Source of the DNA: a virus
IMG/VR virus record: IMGVR_UViG_3300047668_001718
Span: 1-28,365 of that record
Strand: one strand, 5' to 3'
DNA: 28,365 nt
Made by a program: the position numbers and the translations under genes. Shown here piece by piece: positions 14,086-21,800 of the stretch (within the stretch, counting starts at the first letter, position 1; each line of letters begins with the position of its first letter). The notes beneath the pieces are model-generated. The model was not told the DNA's origin and ran no database searches. It saw only the letters and a list, made by a program, of their open reading frames with translations.

Positions 14086-14136
14086 TTGGTGAAGATAGTC
14101 AGGGCGGGCGGGAAAACCTCAAGCGAACAATGGAAA

Positions 14137-14175
14137 GCGGCCCTGATCGGGGAAAGAGGAAACCTTCAGGGCCGC
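14137..14175 (-). other. Perfect 10-bp inverted repeat before the gpW-like gene
   Basis: GCGGCCCTGA (14175-14166 on the minus strand) pairs perfectly with TCAGGGCCGC (14146-14137) around a 19-base pyrimidine-rich loop, in the 120-base gap between the AT-hook gene and the gpW-like gene. Only TTT follows, so it is a weak terminator at most. It could be an attenuator, an RNA-processing site or a messenger stabiliser at the head-gene boundary. Confidence 0.6.
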
Positions 14176-14204: not shown

Positions 14205-14384
14205 TCAGGTCTTGGATTCGTCAAGCGGTTTAGGCGGCCGGCCTCGTGGCCTGCTGCCTGGCTTGGGCGGTTTGCTGGCGTTGGCCCTGGCTGCCAGGGT
14301 CTTGGCCTCGCTGCTTTTGCTGCCAAGGATTTTGCCGATATTGATTGGCTTGTTGCAATGCGGGCAGTTGTGGGTTGTTGTCAA
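14205..14384 (-). CDS. Small CxxC/AT-hook DNA-binding protein (TTG start)
   Basis: 59 residues in a frame different from the longer Gln-rich open frame over the same bases. The TTG start at 14384 overlaps the preceding TGA (TTGA), an arrangement like ATGA coupling, with AAGG about nine bases upstream. The N-terminus carries HNCPHCNKP, a CxxC knuckle; the C-terminus carries SRPRGRPPKP, a canonical AT-hook core (PRGRP) that binds the minor groove of A/T-rich DNA. The middle is Ala/Lys/Ser-rich and helical. Only one CxxC pair is present, so metal binding would need a partner or a dimer. Small proteins with this knuckle-plus-GRP plan occur in many phages without assigned function. Confidence 0.75.
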   Translation of the reverse strand: MTTTHNCPHCNKPINIGKILGSKSSEAKTLAARANASKPPKPGSRPRGRPPKPLDESKT

Positions 14385-14659
14385 ACTTCCCGCCCTTCTG
14401 CATGGGCGATTGCTTTATCAACTAAACCTTGCTCGTATTTCATAAGCGGAACTTCCTTTGAACATTCGGCCAGTTTTTTCAATGCTTCGTACATTTCCGG
14501 CGCACTCGCCATCAAATGCGCGTTGGCCTCCACTTCATCCTCTGGCCGGTCTGTCCGAATGTCTGCAACAACGTCGCTGCCGTCGCCGCCGCCAACCATC
14601 AAACAGTCGTCGCCGTCGATTGTTGTTATTAGCCAAGGGCCGTTTGTGTGTTTTTTCAT
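14381..14659 (-). CDS. Conserved small phage protein with ANAHLMASAPEMYEALK motif
   Basis: 92 residues. The segment EANAHLMASAPEMYEALKKL is the widespread phage motif usually written as NARLIAAAPELLEAL, found in small proteins of unknown function. The N-terminal third (NGPWLITTIDGDDCLMVGG) matches the beta-rich front of the same group. An AGGA lies about ten bases before the ATG at 14659. It belongs to a three-gene unit downstream of the operator-containing promoter. Function unknown. Confidence 0.75.
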   Translation of the reverse strand: MKKHTNGPWLITTIDGDDCLMVGGGDGSDVVADIRTDRPEDEVEANAHLMASAPEMYEALKKLAECSKEVPLMKYEQGLVDKAIAHAEGREV

Positions 14660-14681
14660 TTTGTTTGGTTCCTTTCTTGGT

Positions 14682-14888
14682 TTATGCGGTTGCTTCGAGT
14701 TTGTCCATTAAGGCGTCAACCATCTCGCCGCCGTTGCGTTGCTCGTATTCGTTCAACATTGCAACGCGCACAATCAGTTCCTCTTTTGTAAACTTGTCCC
14801 ATGCTTTGTTGATAACAACCAGGGCGGCCTCGATCTGCGAAGTTGTCAGGGCTTTAATTCTGTTTTGGAGTTTCTGTTTTGCGTTCAT
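14682..14888 (-). CDS. Small helical protein, first gene after the operator promoter
   Basis: 68 residues, highly charged and predicted all-helical (QKLQNRIKALTTSQIEAALV, then WDKFTKEELIVRVAMLNEY). It has no CxxC, HTH or membrane signature that I can identify. It is the first gene downstream of the promoter/operator at 14931-14959. It has no Shine-Dalgarno sequence, only an A-rich leader (AATAAAAAA) directly before the ATG, unlike most genes in this window. Function unknown; a regulatory or accessory role is suggested only by context. Confidence 0.65.
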   Translation of the reverse strand: MNAKQKLQNRIKALTTSQIEAALVVINKAWDKFTKEELIVRVAMLNEYEQRNGGEMVDALMDKLEATA

Positions 14889-14930
14889 TTTTTTATTTGT
14901 GGCTTGGGCTTATTCCCTCGCGCTGGAAAT

Positions 14931-14959
14931 ACAATAAGCGAACAGTTCGCTTATGTCAA
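14931..14959 (-). promoter_or_regulatory. Sigma70-type promoter with palindromic operator in the spacer
   Basis: On the minus strand, TTGACA (14959-14954) and TATTGT (14936-14931) are separated by exactly 17 bases. A perfect 9+3+9 palindrome (arms ATAAGCGAA and TTCGCTTAT around a CAG/CTG centre) occupies 14934-14954, touching both promoter elements. A protein bound there should block RNA polymerase. Transcription would begin near 14924 and enter the 68-residue gene. A related half-site (TTGTTCGCTTGA on the minus strand) occurs at about 14120-14131. Confidence 0.75.
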
Positions 14960-15001
14960 CCCCTTTTGTGAAAATAAATGAAGAAAGTTTTTGCGTATTT
15001 G

Positions 15002-16765
15002 CTAACGTTTTTGGCCTTTTTCAACAATAGTGAAAAAAGTTTCCAAGCATCTGGCCATCATGGCCGCCGCAACCTGCATCCCTTCGCAATCCCAAATGTG
15101 ATTGGCTCGCTTGCCAACCTTGTGCCATTCGTAAACAGGCTGGCCGGCGCGGTCGGCGCGTTCCTTGCGGCGCTCGGAAAACATTTGCAGTTCGTACTCC
15201 TGGCCGGAATCTGGGAGGGCAGTCCAACTGGCGCCCTTGCCTTCGCGCAGGTTGTAAAGTACGTCCTTCACCGTCGGGTTGCTCCAATGGAAAAGCGATA
15301 CAGGGCGCACTCTGCCCTGGGCCTTGGTTCCTATGGCCGGATCGACCAGCACCCTGGGCGAGTAGGCACGGCGCACGTTGGTTCCGTCCTTCAGTTTGTG
15401 CGCGAAGTCGCGTTGCTTGCTGCCCCTCATGCAAGTCCAGCCAAACTTTTTGCAGGCCGCATAGACCTTCTGAGAGTTGTAGGCCGAGTCGATGAACAGC
15501 AGGTGCGGTTTGATGTTGTACTCGATCCGCAAAGCCTCGACGTCCTCCCAGGTCAACGGCTTTGACCAATGCAACAGGCGGCTGTTGCCGTCATTCGACC
15601 AGGCGCGAACGACCAAATAAAATAAATCCTTCTGCACGTCCACAGTTGCGAAGCGGAAGTCCTCGGCAGGCCAGGGCCAGGCGTCATCATGCACCGACAG
15701 TTCTCGCAGTTCGTCGTCGCTCTCCATTTCCTCAATCCATGGCACGCCCAGCGATTCGCATTTGAACGCCTTCAAGGGAACAGTTGTCCCGACGCGAAGC
15801 GCAGCCTTGGCCTGAAGGAACTCCTGGACCAAATCACGCCAGGCAACCCATGGCGGCAGCACGGCCGACCAGCGGAAACTGACTTTCTCGCTAGGCGCCT
15901 GCGGGTTGGTAACTTCCCAAACGCCGGAACAGGCAAACGCCTTGCGTATGTCTTGCCGGTCAACAAACGGCGCCTGGCAGTCTGGGCATTCGTAGCGGAT
16001 TGTTTTTGTCAGTTCGTCGAAGTCCCATTCATCATTTTTGAACGTGTCGGCGTTCGTATCCCACTTTACATTCTCGAAAGCCATTTCGTGGCGGCCTTTG
16101 CAGGCAGGGCATTCGACTTTGTAGATGCGCTGGTCGCCTTCCATGTAGGCACGATGCACATGGTCGTTTTCATGGTCAGGCGTTGAAATCATTATCCGGC
16201 GAGCGTTCCAGAATGCCCGCGTTCGTTTCAGCACCATCTCGTATGCGCCTGGTGGATAGTTGCGCACCTCATCCAGAAACAACCAGCGCACAGGTTTGCT
16301 TTGCAGTTTGCTCTGACTGTTGGCGCCGTTAATTACCAGCGGCATCGAAGCGAAATTGATTTCCAAAGTCGTCTTGGCGTGTCGGTCGGCAGGGAACAGC
16401 CGCGCCACAGGTTCGCAGTTCTCCAGGGTCGGCATCAACCTTGTCCTGGCAAAGGTCTTGGCCTCGTCCTGGGCAGCCATCACCCACATGGCAGGGCCGG
16501 CATCCTCGGCAATGCACCAGGCCAGCAACGTCATCACCATCTGTGTTTTGCCAGACTGGGCGCTGCACATGATGGACAGGTCTTTCACGCGGTTGTCGGC
16601 AAAGCATTCCATTGGTTCCTTCGTCCAGGGCGCGATATTGGAATTGAACTTGCCAGGGAAGGGGCTGGTCTTGTCAACGATGATGTTTTTCTCTGCCCAC
16701 AGCCATGGTGCGTCGGTACTCCTGGGCGCAATGGCTTGGCGTGCGATTTCTTCGGTGTAGGTCAT
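15002..16765 (-). CDS. Terminase large subunit (lambda gpA family)
   Basis: 587 residues. The N-terminal ATPase has a Walker A-like motif CSAQSGKT (67-74) and Walker B WLFLDE (161-166). A zinc-ribbon-like insert carries CPAC (219-222) and CPDC (260-263). The C-terminal nuclease domain has acidic positions in RFATVDVQKD (Asp 376) and HLLFIDSAYN (Asp 426). This is the architecture of the gpA family, which cuts concatemers and drives DNA into procapsids through the portal; gpA-type enzymes usually cut at cos sites. The start overlaps the preceding gene by four bases (ATGA). Length is close to the family norm, with no missing motif. Confidence 0.92.
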   Translation of the reverse strand: MTYTEEIARQAIAPRSTDAPWLWAEKNIIVDKTSPFPGKFNSNIAPWTKEPMECFADNRVKDLSIMCSAQSGKTQMVMTLLAWCIAEDAGPAMWVMAAQDEAKTFARTRLMPTLENCEPVARLFPADRHAKTTLEINFASMPLVINGANSQSKLQSKPVRWLFLDEVRNYPPGAYEMVLKRTRAFWNARRIMISTPDHENDHVHRAYMEGDQRIYKVECPACKGRHEMAFENVKWDTNADTFKNDEWDFDELTKTIRYECPDCQAPFVDRQDIRKAFACSGVWEVTNPQAPSEKVSFRWSAVLPPWVAWRDLVQEFLQAKAALRVGTTVPLKAFKCESLGVPWIEEMESDDELRELSVHDDAWPWPAEDFRFATVDVQKDLFYLVVRAWSNDGNSRLLHWSKPLTWEDVEALRIEYNIKPHLLFIDSAYNSQKVYAACKKFGWTCMRGSKQRDFAHKLKDGTNVRRAYSPRVLVDPAIGTKAQGRVRPVSLFHWSNPTVKDVLYNLREGKGASWTALPDSGQEYELQMFSERRKERADRAGQPVYEWHKVGKRANHIWDCEGMQVAAAMMARCLETFFTIVEKGQKR

Positions 16766-17055
16766 CGCTTTATGAATTTGCGGGCGTATTGCATGAACCT
16801 TTGCAACTCCAGTTTTTCGTATTCGTTTCTTTCAATGCGTAAATTCACAATCTTGCAACCGTAATGAACAGAAGAACGGTCTTGCCCCCAAAACTCTGCA
16901 ATCACGCTTTTTTTGATGCCGGCGTCGTTTGCAATCCACTGACAGTGATGCCGTGGCCTGGTGTAAATGGCCGACCTGTTGGTGCTAGTTAAGCCTTCAA
17001 ACGGCACCTGGTAAAAGTCGGCGGCTGCCTCGGCCAATTGTTTCAGTTTTCCCAT
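16762..17055 (-). CDS. DnaA domain IV-like protein between terminase genes
   Basis: 97 residues. The central part (CQWIANDAGIKKSVIAEFWG, then QDRSSVHYGCKIV) follows the helix-turn-helix and signature of DnaA domain IV, whose usual form is IGxxFGGRDHSTVxHAxxKI. There is no ATPase domain, so it could bind DNA but not act as a full initiator. It lies between the small and large terminase genes, one base after the small-subunit stop. It may bind the packaging site, or host DnaA boxes, to link replication and packaging; that is inference. Confidence 0.65.
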   Translation of the reverse strand: MGKLKQLAEAAADFYQVPFEGLTSTNRSAIYTRPRHHCQWIANDAGIKKSVIAEFWGQDRSSVHYGCKIVNLRIERNEYEKLELQRFMQYARKFIKR

Positions 17056-18550: not shown

Positions 18551-20476
18551 TCAGGTGCGAAATTGGCCGAAAGGCATCCAAATGCCGCCCTCCTGCTTGA
18601 ATACAGAATCGGCATCCTTCAGCTTTTTAAGGGAGCGGAAGAAGGATGTTTTGCTGATGCCATGCTCGGCTTTGGCCTTCTCCAGCCAATCGCCAAAGGT
18701 CAACCCATCCTTGGGCAGCAGGTCTAGCAGTTGGTTCTCGTTGTAGGTTTTCTTTCTCCCTGGCTGCCGTATCCCCTCAACGTCCAGGTCGTCGCATGGC
18801 TTGAGTTGTGGGAAGTCCCAGCGCAGGGCAAATGGTGGGATTGCAGGGAAGCAGCGCAGGGTTGCCTCACAAACGTAGCAATCATCCTCTTCATGGTCTG
18901 ATAGTATCAGAATAGCGTCAGGGTCGCGTGATAGCACGCCGCTGCCACTCATGCGGTCAATGGCGAATTTGCCTCCCTGGGCGCCTTTGGCGAAGTGATG
19001 GGCGAACACCAGGGCGCTGCCTGAATCCACCGCTAAAGCCTCAAATTCGTTCATTAGGTCGGCCATATCGCCGGCATCGTTCTCACTCCGGCTGCCTATC
19101 AGCTTGTAAATAGGGTCGAAAATCAGCAGGCTAAAGTCCCTTGATTCAATGGCTTGGGCCAAAATAGGGCGAAGAACAGTCATATCGGCCGCCTGCCCTC
19201 GCAGGTTCAGCACGTGAACGCGGGAAGCATCCTTGCAGTTGCGGGCCTTCAGAATGGCCTCCATACGCTGCCTGAAATTGAACTCCTGAAGCTCAAAATT
19301 GATGTAGAGGACGTCGCCAAGATTGCATTGACGGCCCCAAAACTCGCTTCCTGTGGCCACAGCAGCGGCCAAATCCATCAGCGACCAGGTTTTGCGGCCT
19401 TTGCTGGTTCCTCCCACGATCATCTTCCCGCCCCTATACAGCACGCCATCAATCACTTGTTGTGGTACAACCATAGGCGTGGTTTGCAGGTCGGAATATC
19501 GTTTGATAATTAGGCCAGCCGGCACTTCGTCTGCTGTTTCCTCTGCCTTGACCTTTGGCATTCGCCTGGCCAGCGCCAACCCTGACTTGAGGGCGCTCTT
19601 GCCGTCACGTTTAAGCCAATCGTTTGTGTCGTTGATGTCGTCAGGCACCTTGACCTTGAAAACGTCGCCTGTGGCCATTTCTGCCACCTGGTTGGCCCAC
19701 TTGGCGCCTGCCTCGTCATTCTGTGGCCATATATAAATCTTTTGGCCTGGGTGCAGTCTGCCCTCCAGCTTTCGGGCATTGGATGCGCCCCTGGTAATCA
19801 TGCAGGCGTGGGTTTCAGGCTGCCAGGCGCCGTTGCCGAAGCCTTGGGAATCCATGAAGGCCATTGCATCCCATTGGCTTTCGAAAACGTGCAGATTGTC
19901 GGCGTTATGGCTACCGATTAGCCAAGGTTGATTGCCCCCGCCTGTGATGCGCCAGCCTGACTCTGTGCGAAGGTGCATTCCCTGGTAGGCGCCGCCCTCG
20001 TTGTAAATGGGGAAAGCGATTGACTCACCAACCAAACCAGCCAGGCCGTTTTCTATGAGGCCAACCAGCAGCGTTTTTGAGTAACCGCGCCAGGTTGCTA
20101 AATGGGCCAAGGTCTTGGGATTGCCGGCCAGACTCTCAACAGCCTGGCGCCACTCGCCAGCGTCGGGCAGTTTGCCAATGCTGACGGTTGTTGGTTCGGC
20201 AGGTTGTGGCAGGCCGACCATGTTCTCGTAATGCTTCAGCGCCTCCTTTGTGTCGCAGTTGTGCAGGGCTTTTAGGAAGTCCAGTTCATCGCCTCCCTGG
20301 CCGGTTGCAAAGTCCTTCCAGTGATGGCCCTTGTCGTCCTGGTAAATGCCCCAGCTTGGGTTGTTGTCCTTGCGTAACGGAGAACAACAAAGCTTTTTGG
20401 CATAGTCGCCCAGCCCCATGGCTCGGAGCAGGTCAGGCAACGGCAGTCTTGCCTTCAGTTCGTCAATTGTTGCCAT
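18551..20476 (-). CDS. Primase-helicase (toprim plus RepA-like ATPase)
   Basis: 641 residues. The N-terminal 90 residues resemble a CHC2-type primase front (LCCSPLRKDNNPSWGIYQDD) but keep only part of the zinc ligand set. A toprim-like region follows with VFESQWDAM (198-205) and IYIWPQNDEAG (247-257). The C-terminal half is a RepA/AAA_25-type helicase with P-loop GGTSKGRKTW (355-364), in which Arg replaces the usual second Gly, Walker B LLIFDP (450-455) and the sensor FAHHFAKG (491-498). The final 65 residues look like a winged helix (KTSFFRSLKKLKDADSVF). It should unwind and prime at the phage origin. No DNA polymerase is encoded nearby, so host polymerase is probably used. Confidence 0.85.
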   Translation of the reverse strand: MATIDELKARLPLPDLLRAMGLGDYAKKLCCSPLRKDNNPSWGIYQDDKGHHWKDFATGQGGDELDFLKALHNCDTKEALKHYENMVGLPQPAEPTTVSIGKLPDAGEWRQAVESLAGNPKTLAHLATWRGYSKTLLVGLIENGLAGLVGESIAFPIYNEGGAYQGMHLRTESGWRITGGGNQPWLIGSHNADNLHVFESQWDAMAFMDSQGFGNGAWQPETHACMITRGASNARKLEGRLHPGQKIYIWPQNDEAGAKWANQVAEMATGDVFKVKVPDDINDTNDWLKRDGKSALKSGLALARRMPKVKAEETADEVPAGLIIKRYSDLQTTPMVVPQQVIDGVLYRGGKMIVGGTSKGRKTWSLMDLAAAVATGSEFWGRQCNLGDVLYINFELQEFNFRQRMEAILKARNCKDASRVHVLNLRGQAADMTVLRPILAQAIESRDFSLLIFDPIYKLIGSRSENDAGDMADLMNEFEALAVDSGSALVFAHHFAKGAQGGKFAIDRMSGSGVLSRDPDAILILSDHEEDDCYVCEATLRCFPAIPPFALRWDFPQLKPCDDLDVEGIRQPGRKKTYNENQLLDLLPKDGLTFGDWLEKAKAEHGISKTSFFRSLKKLKDADSVFKQEGGIWMPFGQFRT

Positions 20477-20759
20477 TTATGACTTTGCGAAGGCGTTCAC
20501 GTTCCTTGGCCAGTTCAGGCTCTTGCTTGCACAGGTCGGCGACACGTTGGTGCGCGTAGACTGTGCTTGTGTGGTGCCGGTTGAATGCCGTGCCAACCTC
20601 GGCGCAGGAATAGGGCTGTTCGTAGGCAATCGACATGGCCAGGAGTCGCGGCCAACTGATTGGCCAAGGGCCGCGCCTGGGTTGGGTTAGTTGTTTTTCC
20701 TCCAGGCCGTAGTGCTTGGCTGTTCGTTTTAAAATCTGTTTTAAGGTAGGTTTACGCAT
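20463..20759 (-). CDS. DnaA domain IV-like protein next to the primase-helicase
   Basis: 98 residues from ATG 20759, eight bases inside the preceding gene; it overlaps the primase-helicase start by 14 bases. Residues about 38-75 (RLLAMSIAYEQPYSCAEVGT, then FNRHHTSTVYAHQRV) closely follow the DnaA domain IV pattern ([23 protein letters not shown]). Only the DNA-binding domain is present. Coupled translation with a primase-helicase suggests origin recognition and helicase loading, in the way lambda O does for P, but the binding site is not identified. A second protein of the same type lies at 16762-17055. Confidence 0.75.
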   Translation of the reverse strand: MRKPTLKQILKRTAKHYGLEEKQLTQPRRGPWPISWPRLLAMSIAYEQPYSCAEVGTAFNRHHTSTVYAHQRVADLCKQEPELAKERERLRKVINGNN

Positions 20760-21225
20760 TCGTAAAATTGTGCAGTTGTGACTGCTCGACAATGTATGAC
20801 CATCGGCCGTTCAGTTCGCGGTAGTTTATGTCGGCGAAAACTTCGTCCTTGTAGGCGTAACCGATGACGTCGAAGGCCGGAGGCGTGCCAATAACTAAAA
20901 CATAAATATCTGTCGCACAGTCTTTTTTGTTGGGCGTAACCAAGAGCCGGCCGCCAACGTATCGCGTCGTCTTAACGTCGATGGTTTTGCCGTTGCGTGC
21001 TACGCAGTCATGAGTCAGCGATTGGTTCACAACAGACAGGTCGGGGTGCAGGTTCATGGCCTTGCAAAAAGCCAACTCTGCCGCGAACCCGTCAACGTCC
21101 ATTTGGTAGGATGAATGGCTGCCGATCTTGCGTTCAACAATGTTGCCGGCCCTGTTGCAGGTCGTCCGCATTGCTGCCACCACATTGGCAATTGCCATTT
21201 CGCTGGCTGTCAGTTCAATTTTCAT
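20752..21225 (-). CDS. PD-(D/E)XK nuclease-like protein
   Basis: 157 residues from ATG 21225; an in-frame GTG at 21243 also exists, but the ATG gives an N-terminus matching the neighbouring gene. The order Glu 50 (GFAAELAFCKAM), Asp 73 (THDCVARNG) and the DVK of TIDVKTTRYVGG (83-85), followed by strands (LLVTPNK, DIYVLVIG), is the core of the restriction-endonuclease-like fold. It could be a recombination or host-DNA-degrading nuclease. Its first ten residues (MKIELTASEM) nearly duplicate those of the preceding gene. Confidence 0.65.
   Translation of the reverse strand: MKIELTASEMAIANVVAAMRTTCNRAGNIVERKIGSHSSYQMDVDGFAAELAFCKAMNLHPDLSVVNQSLTHDCVARNGKTIDVKTTRYVGGRLLVTPNKKDCATDIYVLVIGTPPAFDVIGYAYKDEVFADINYRELNGRWSYIVEQSQLHNFTNA
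21196..21225 (-). repeat. Duplicated start segment, copy 2
   Basis: The first ten codons of the nuclease-like gene (MKIELTASEM) match 26 of 30 bases with the first ten codons of the preceding gene at 21575-21604. The core ATTGAACTGACAGC is identical in both. Similarity stops abruptly after the tenth codon. Confidence 0.85.
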
Positions 21226-21604
21226 TTTCCTGGCACAAATCACAGACGCACCTATAAAGGCCGACTCTTTCCCATCCCTTTCCTAAAACGCTGTCCGCTG
21301 CAAAAATTTGCCCGCAGTCGGTGCAGCGCATTGCGCCGCAACTCCAATTTGAGAGATGTATGTTTTCGATTCCATTGGGCGAACTCAACCAAGCCGCCTT
21401 GGTGGCCTTCCCTTTAAGGCTTTCACGGTAGCGCTTTTGGGCCGCCTTTCTTTTAGGGCTGTCTGTGTAGCGTTTTTGGGCAGCCTTACATTCAGGGCTT
21501 TCGCGGTATCTTTTCATTGCTGCCTTGCCTTCGGGGCTTTCGCGGTAGCGCTTATCCCTGGCCTGCTTCGCCGTCATCTCGCTCGCTGTCAGTTCAATCC
21601 TCAT
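21215..21604 (-). CDS. Basic tandem-repeat protein with C-terminal cysteine cluster
   Basis: 129 residues from ATG 21604. After the MRIELTASEM start come four 13-residue repeats (residues 17-68) of the form KRYRESPEGKAAM, strongly basic and probably helical, with a fifth degenerate unit. The C-terminal part holds six cysteines (CGAMRCTDCGQIF, then YRCVCDLC), which could bind zinc. Such a protein is likely to bind nucleic acid, but no catalytic motif (for example HNH) is present. It overlaps the HTH gene by 11 bases and the nuclease-like gene by 11 bases. Confidence 0.65.
   Translation of the reverse strand: MRIELTASEMTAKQARDKRYRESPEGKAAMKRYRESPECKAAQKRYTDSPKRKAAQKRYRESLKGKATKAAWLSSPNGIENIHLSNWSCGAMRCTDCGQIFAADSVLGKGWERVGLYRCVCDLCQENEN
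21401..21556 (-). repeat. Four in-frame 39-bp tandem repeats
   Basis: The bases coding residues 17-68 of the repeat protein consist of four 39-base units, each coding a version of (M/Q)KRYRESPEGKAA. The first two units are most alike (YRESPEGKAA, YRESPECKAA); the third and fourth have diverged (YTDSPKRKAA, YRESLKGKAT). Unit number could vary by slippage or recombination. Confidence 0.85.
21575..21604 (-). repeat. Duplicated start segment, copy 1
   Basis: The first ten codons of the repeat protein (MRIELTASEM) match those of the next gene at 21196-21225 in 26 of 30 bases, ending at the second Met codon. The upstream leaders differ, so the duplication covers coding sequence rather than a ribosome site. 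Confidence 0.85.
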
Positions 21605-21800
21605 GTTCTGCAACTTTATATTTTGCCAGAGCGGTCTTAACGTCAGGCCAATAAAAGCGAACAGAAAAGCCGATTTTTATGTATGGCAATAAACCAAGTT
21701 TCATCCAGTTGTCGATTGTCCGGCTACTGCAGGCCAAGCGTTTGGCTAAATCGGCTTTATTCAGTAAGCCGTCCTCCTGTGGTTCCTTTGTTGTTTTCAT
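21594..21800 (-). CDS. Excisionase/AlpA-type HTH protein
   Basis: 68 residues. LLNKADLAKRLACSSRTIDN, then WMKLGLLPYIKIGFSVRFYW and PDVKTALAKYK, is the HTH_17/MerR-like fold used by excisionases, AlpA-type activators and similar small DNA-binding proteins. It overlaps the resolvase stop by ATGA. With no integrase in the window, a transcription-factor role is at least as likely as excision. It is the only clear stand-alone small HTH regulator here and a candidate partner for the palindrome at 14934-14954. Confidence 0.75.
   Translation of the reverse strand: MKTTKEPQEDGLLNKADLAKRLACSSRTIDNWMKLGLLPYIKIGFSVRFYWPDVKTALAKYKVAEHED

Follow-up and report, generated by a model that had tools for sequence, protein, structure and literature searches.

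A palindrome in the promoter of an exchangeable small-gene cassette of marine phages as a likely repressor-type switch

The perfect palindrome found near the end of the large terminase gene in the phage DNA described here is almost certainly a repressor-type switch, situated in the promoter of an exchangeable set of small accessory genes that lies between two packaging genes in a group of marine phages. The DNA is an IMG/VR virus record of 28,365 bp, and we refer to the whole of it as the window. Further, one gene of the set is constant among relatives, and its small protein is a candidate autoregulator.

The promoter is read on the minus strand. Its -35 element, TTGACA (14,954–14,959), and its -10 element, TATTGT (14,931–14,936), are 17 bp apart, as a first-pass annotation of the sequence alone had reported; the spacing and the conserved positions are those of a sigma70 promoter (16–18 bp), and the pair is the only 10/12 promoter within the surrounding 3 kb. 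Most relatives have TTGAC at -35, with TGGAC, TTGCA or TTGTA in some, and T1, T3 and T6 of the -10 element are invariant in all 17-bp-spaced copies. We place the transcription start at the A at 14,924 (minus strand), six bases past the -10 element. Of the 17 promoters aligned, 15 have an A at this position, and the other two are copies displaced by a single base.

The putative operator, ATAAGCGAACTGTTCGCTTAT (14,934–14,954, minus strand), spans the 17-bp spacer and takes in the final base of the -35 element and the first three bases of the -10 element. The annotation had described a perfect 9+3+9 palindrome. The perfection stands, but the size does not: the C and G beside the central T also pair, making a 10+1+10 dyad with the arms ATAAGCGAAC-T-GTTCGCTTAT. 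It is the sole palindrome in the window with arms of at least 8 and a loop of 0–4, and the site occurs there once, even with two mismatches allowed. In dinucleotide shuffles of the window, arms of at least 10 appear somewhere in about 22%, so the existence of the dyad is by itself weak evidence and must be read together with relatives. It gains significance because it falls together with the one 10/12 promoter of the surrounding 3 kb and is conserved in those relatives. By inspection, its core, GAAC-N1-GTTC, differs from the Verrucomicrobia LexA box (TGTTC-N4-GAACA), which agrees with the earlier statement that it is not a standard LexA box. A half-site-like match had also been proposed near 14,120–14,131. 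We reject it as an operator half-site; it is part of TCGCTTGAG, a backbone element of the relatives that is present with and without the cassette and whose GTTC part is not kept.

Relatives were collected by a terminase search of viral contigs (28 loci), by a leader-sequence scan (21 stretches) and by a scan for the constant cassette protein (28 stretches). When viral contigs were scanned with a degenerate promoter/operator pattern, 14 cassette contigs were returned together with four others (L089, L090, L091 and L093) that look like the chance matches expected of such a scan. No DNA-level relatives of the window were found in the cultured phage collection, and an Rfam search of the window gave no match. 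The nearest terminases among cellular genomes are mostly from Verrucomicrobiota, and the portal protein has its best cultured match in Verrucomicrobia phage P8625, at 25% identity. These facts make Verrucomicrobiota the likely host group.

In the relatives, 19 distinct palindrome-type promoters are read directly after TerL, and the -35 element, the -10 element and the start site are common to all of them. The center of the dyad is constant relative to the -10 element and the start; this holds even in L081 and L084, where a single base is inserted beside the -35 element. Three different perfect dyads occupy this same place: AAGCGAACWGTTCGCTT in the window and L002, ATAACCTAACGTTAGGTTAT (with an even center) in L032, and AAACCTAACAGTTAGGTTT in L072 and L078. 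Other relatives have intermediate dyads with one to three mismatches, and quite imperfect operators are found in L008 (6/9) and L021 (7/9); the consensus is AASCNAACWGTTNGSTT. Across the 17 odd-centered dyad sequences, 85.9% of cells are paired, versus 22–60% in slid registers. The covariation score is 0.172, versus 0.091 for shuffled sequences, and none of 500 shuffles reached 0.172; this control leaves relatedness in, so more weight belongs to the occurrence of three different perfect dyads. The first-pass annotation had proposed a repressor-controlled promoter and had suggested looking for the palindrome in relatives. The comparison supports that proposal: the elements of the promoter, its start site and the symmetry of the dyad are retained while the letters of the dyad covary. 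We thus hold with considerable confidence, from these alignments, that this is a promoter with an operator in its spacer.

The message would begin with a 36-nt 5' leader, AGCGCGAGGGAATAAGCCCAAGCC... (14,889–14,924, minus strand), for which a small hairpin is predicted. As had been claimed, the first gene has no Shine-Dalgarno sequence at a normal distance. A 25-nt portion of the leader, CAGCGCGAGGGAATRARCCCAAGCC, is near-invariant across two groups of phages whose promoter spacers and cargo are different; it is predicted to fold into a small hairpin (GC/GGG-CCC/GC) with purines in an internal loop, and no copy of the leader turned up in the cellular genome collection. A separate phage group, consisting of L036, L040 and L043, shares the leader; its spacer is non-palindromic, and its members have neither the dyad nor the constant gene. 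In L072, L078 and L079, TTGTGCATG or TTGTCCATG follows the -10 element and an ATG falls exactly at the predicted start site. These three loci, which otherwise share the cassette, have a leaderless form of the promoter. The placement of the ATG implies leaderless messages and gives independent support to a start at 14,924.

The accessory cassette as a whole occupies 14,205–15,001 (minus strand), and its right edge, CGCTTGACGA, matches the TerL 3' end of cassette-less relatives. Upstream is the backbone gene for a GpA-type large terminase (15,002–16,765, minus strand). The three small genes that had been noted downstream of the promoter are present, all on the minus strand. Variable gene 1 (14,682–14,888; 68 aa) belongs to no family and is replaced by unrelated genes in most relatives; variable gene 2 (14,381–14,659; 92 aa) matches phrog_1273, of unknown function; and the constant gene (14,205–14,384) encodes 59 aa. 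After the cassette lies a terminator-like, GC-rich inverted repeat with a short T run (14,138–14,175, minus strand) that is also present in cassette-less relatives.

Loci that bear the cassette have the order TerL, dyad promoter, two or more small genes, and the head gene at the gpW position. In the cassette-less loci (L009–L012, L014, L017, L023, L024 and L028–L031), TerL is followed directly by the gpW-position head gene. The TerL of these loci ends in ...CGCTTGACGATTC, which is also the end of the last cassette gene in cassette-bearing relatives. The cassette is thus probably gained and lost as a unit through recombination at this short shared sequence. We found no direct precedent in the literature for an accessory hotspot at the terminase/portal position. 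The cargo genes vary between relatives and recur in changed order, and Pfam and PHROG searches named none of those tested. The cassettes of L018, L039 and L084 include a 69-aa cargo protein, MNTIERPSQADLQGK..., that appears winged-helix-like by eye and has no family match. We suggest only tentatively that the cargo has an anti-defense role.

The constant gene is, like the cassette nature of the locus and the conserved leader, a point absent from the first-pass annotation. Its product in the window has the form CPHC...SEAK...PRGRPPK, and in relatives the protein has 55–66 aa and retains the motifs CPxC, SEAK and PRGRP. The gene is present in every dyad-bearing locus complete enough to judge and in no cassette-less locus. 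Of 2006 ORFs in nine long records, it alone is found in all six that bear the dyad and in none of the three cassette-less ones. This co-occurrence is suggestive of a tie between gene and dyad, but it is confounded by physical linkage and is partly automatic, because the gene and the promoter travel in one cassette. In the cassettes of L008 and L018, the constant gene is second to last. L008 also encodes a second CPxC-type protein, MTEPQKCPHCAKAIDFG..., downstream of the usual constant gene, which may be a second regulator or a cargo copy. The constant protein has no recognizable HTH and no Pfam, PHROG or NCBIfam match. An AlphaFold2 model of it comprises two short helices at low confidence (pLDDT 67, pTM 0.22), and a profile search of the PDB yielded nothing informative, its hits being confined to short stretches of engineered repeat proteins and of zinc fingers.

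The dyad could instead be an operator for some other protein, either a phage-wide one (HTH_17/AlpA-like or DnaA-domain-like) or a host repressor, a reading that we regard as possible though on the unlikely side. Dyads of this type are usually read by HTH proteins, and candidates exist: HTH_17 proteins occur in eight of the nine long records, and two small proteins of the window (16,762–17,055 and 20,463–20,792, minus) have matches to a DnaA domain IV-like HTH. However, HTH_17 proteins are also found in two of the three cassette-less long records (G009 and G010), and the window has no second copy of the site. The first-pass annotation had named a 68-residue HTH protein (21,594–21,800) as a possible regulator. 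That protein occurs only in the window and a near-identical twin record, and it is absent from a further twelve records that are related or bear the leader, the dyad being present in several of them; its HTH_17 family is also present in cassette-less phages. We therefore reject it as the regulator of the dyad. A host factor of the XRE/LexA type, the other regulator that had been put forward, finds no support, in that none of 388 Verrucomicrobiota genomes has the 17-bp site. A host operator is rejected on this count, which applies to that set of genomes, and on the absence of the leader from the cellular genome collection; the true host lineage may be outside the 388.

Another reading takes the inverted repeat as an RNA hairpin, a terminator or a processing site ending the terminase message. 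Its position, about 50 nt past the TerL stop, is suitable, and in the window and L002 the RNA is predicted to form a 9-bp hairpin (-8.2 kcal/mol), which in L002 is followed by a T run. Yet the T run is missing in nearly all relatives and present only in L002, the RNAs of L008 and L021 fold otherwise and do not form the hairpin, and the mismatches in the dyad are mainly purine-purine rather than wobble. Further, the -35 element, the -10 element and the start-site A are conserved around the repeat, and three relatives have a start codon at the predicted start site. An intrinsic terminator would entail a conserved stable hairpin with a T run, and we reject it here. Because the RNA hairpin is not conserved, the dyad is better understood as a DNA operator than as a terminator, and we consider the RNA reading very improbable.

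We give about as little credence to activation of the MerR type, in which a regulator on the spacer dyad would twist an over-long spacer and so activate the promoter. MerR-type operators do have spacer-spanning dyads, and the spacers of MerR targets are typically 19–20 bp. The conservation seen here, with T1, T3 and T6 invariant, fits a -10 element at 17 bp and not one at 19–20 bp, and the cassette has no MerR homolog. Finally, a chance palindrome with no regulatory role, for which the frequency of long arms in shuffled windows might speak, is contradicted by the covariation, that is, by symmetry held across relatives despite different letters, and scarcely merits consideration.

We return to the reading of the dyad as the operator of a repressor. 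A DNA operator would thus lie within the core promoter of a mobile "moron" cassette between the large terminase and the next head gene. Soon after the DNA has entered, the promoter would become active and the accessory proteins would be made. Transcription of the cassette would continue until a repressor dimer filled the dyad. The binder, a dimeric or tandem DNA-binding protein, would cover the spacer and the edges of the -35 and -10 elements and exclude RNA polymerase. Negative feedback would in this way shut the promoter, as in acr-aca operons, and would also limit read-through transcription into the head genes. The most likely binder is the cassette's own CPxC/PRGRP protein, which is retained as the rest of the cassette is exchanged. 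The repression itself, its timing and the identity of the binder are what we infer here. In our estimation, there is an even chance that the cassette is a self-repressed accessory operon with acr-aca-like logic and the constant CPxC/PRGRP protein as its regulator. A more far-reaching proposal, unlikely in its full extent, is that proteins of 55–66 aa with CPxC, a PRGRP tail and no HTH constitute a new class of cassette-encoded regulator, one that reads the fast co-evolving promoter palindrome of an exchangeable anti-defense cassette in Verrucomicrobiota phages.

The organization of the cassette resembles that of the acr-aca operons (Aca1–Aca10), in which small variable accessory genes stand behind their own promoter (PMC9410906). 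In the Aca families that have been analyzed, an inverted repeat lies inside the core promoter, the aca gene follows the acr genes, and Aca is a repressor (PMC9410906). Both features recur here: the core promoter contains an inverted repeat, and a constant small gene comes after the variable ones, at or near the operon end. Aca proteins, however, have an HTH, whereas the constant protein has CPxC and an AT-hook-like PRGRP tail with no detectable HTH. Further, no known acr was recognized in these cassettes, the cargo proteins are mostly without a family match, and the host group is here probably Verrucomicrobiota. Because the constant protein lacks a recognizable HTH and any anti-CRISPR activity is putative, we do not claim membership in the acr-aca systems.

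Other systems share some of these features. Anti-defense genes of archaeal viruses have one conserved early promoter before many different small genes of unknown function (PMC11065993). In both cases, a conserved promoter offers a way to locate accessory genes, but the promoter described here is of the bacterial sigma70 type, has an internal dyad and occupies one genomic site. Like the morons of lambdoid and other phages, the cassette is a promoter-gene unit between structural genes that is missing from close relatives; it differs in that the promoter, the leader and one gene are constant while the cargo is exchanged, and in that the operator covaries. The overlap of the dyad with promoter elements is reminiscent of CI/Cro-type lysogeny operators, yet there is here a single site in a late gene region with no divergent repressor gene, and no integrase was recognized among the proteins examined. 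The general design is thus already known; as judged from the openly accessible literature, novelty appears to lie in the type of regulator, in the phage group and in the naturally occurring series of covarying operators.

If our reading is correct, phages of a poorly studied host phylum share the control logic of acr-aca operons while using a different kind of regulator. The natural variation of the operator, with three perfect types and intermediates between them, makes the evolution of operator specificity testable. Further, the promoter, leader and constant gene would together flag unknown small proteins, dozens of them, as good counter-defense candidates, and the promoter-leader unit would serve as a handle for finding many new counter-defense genes.
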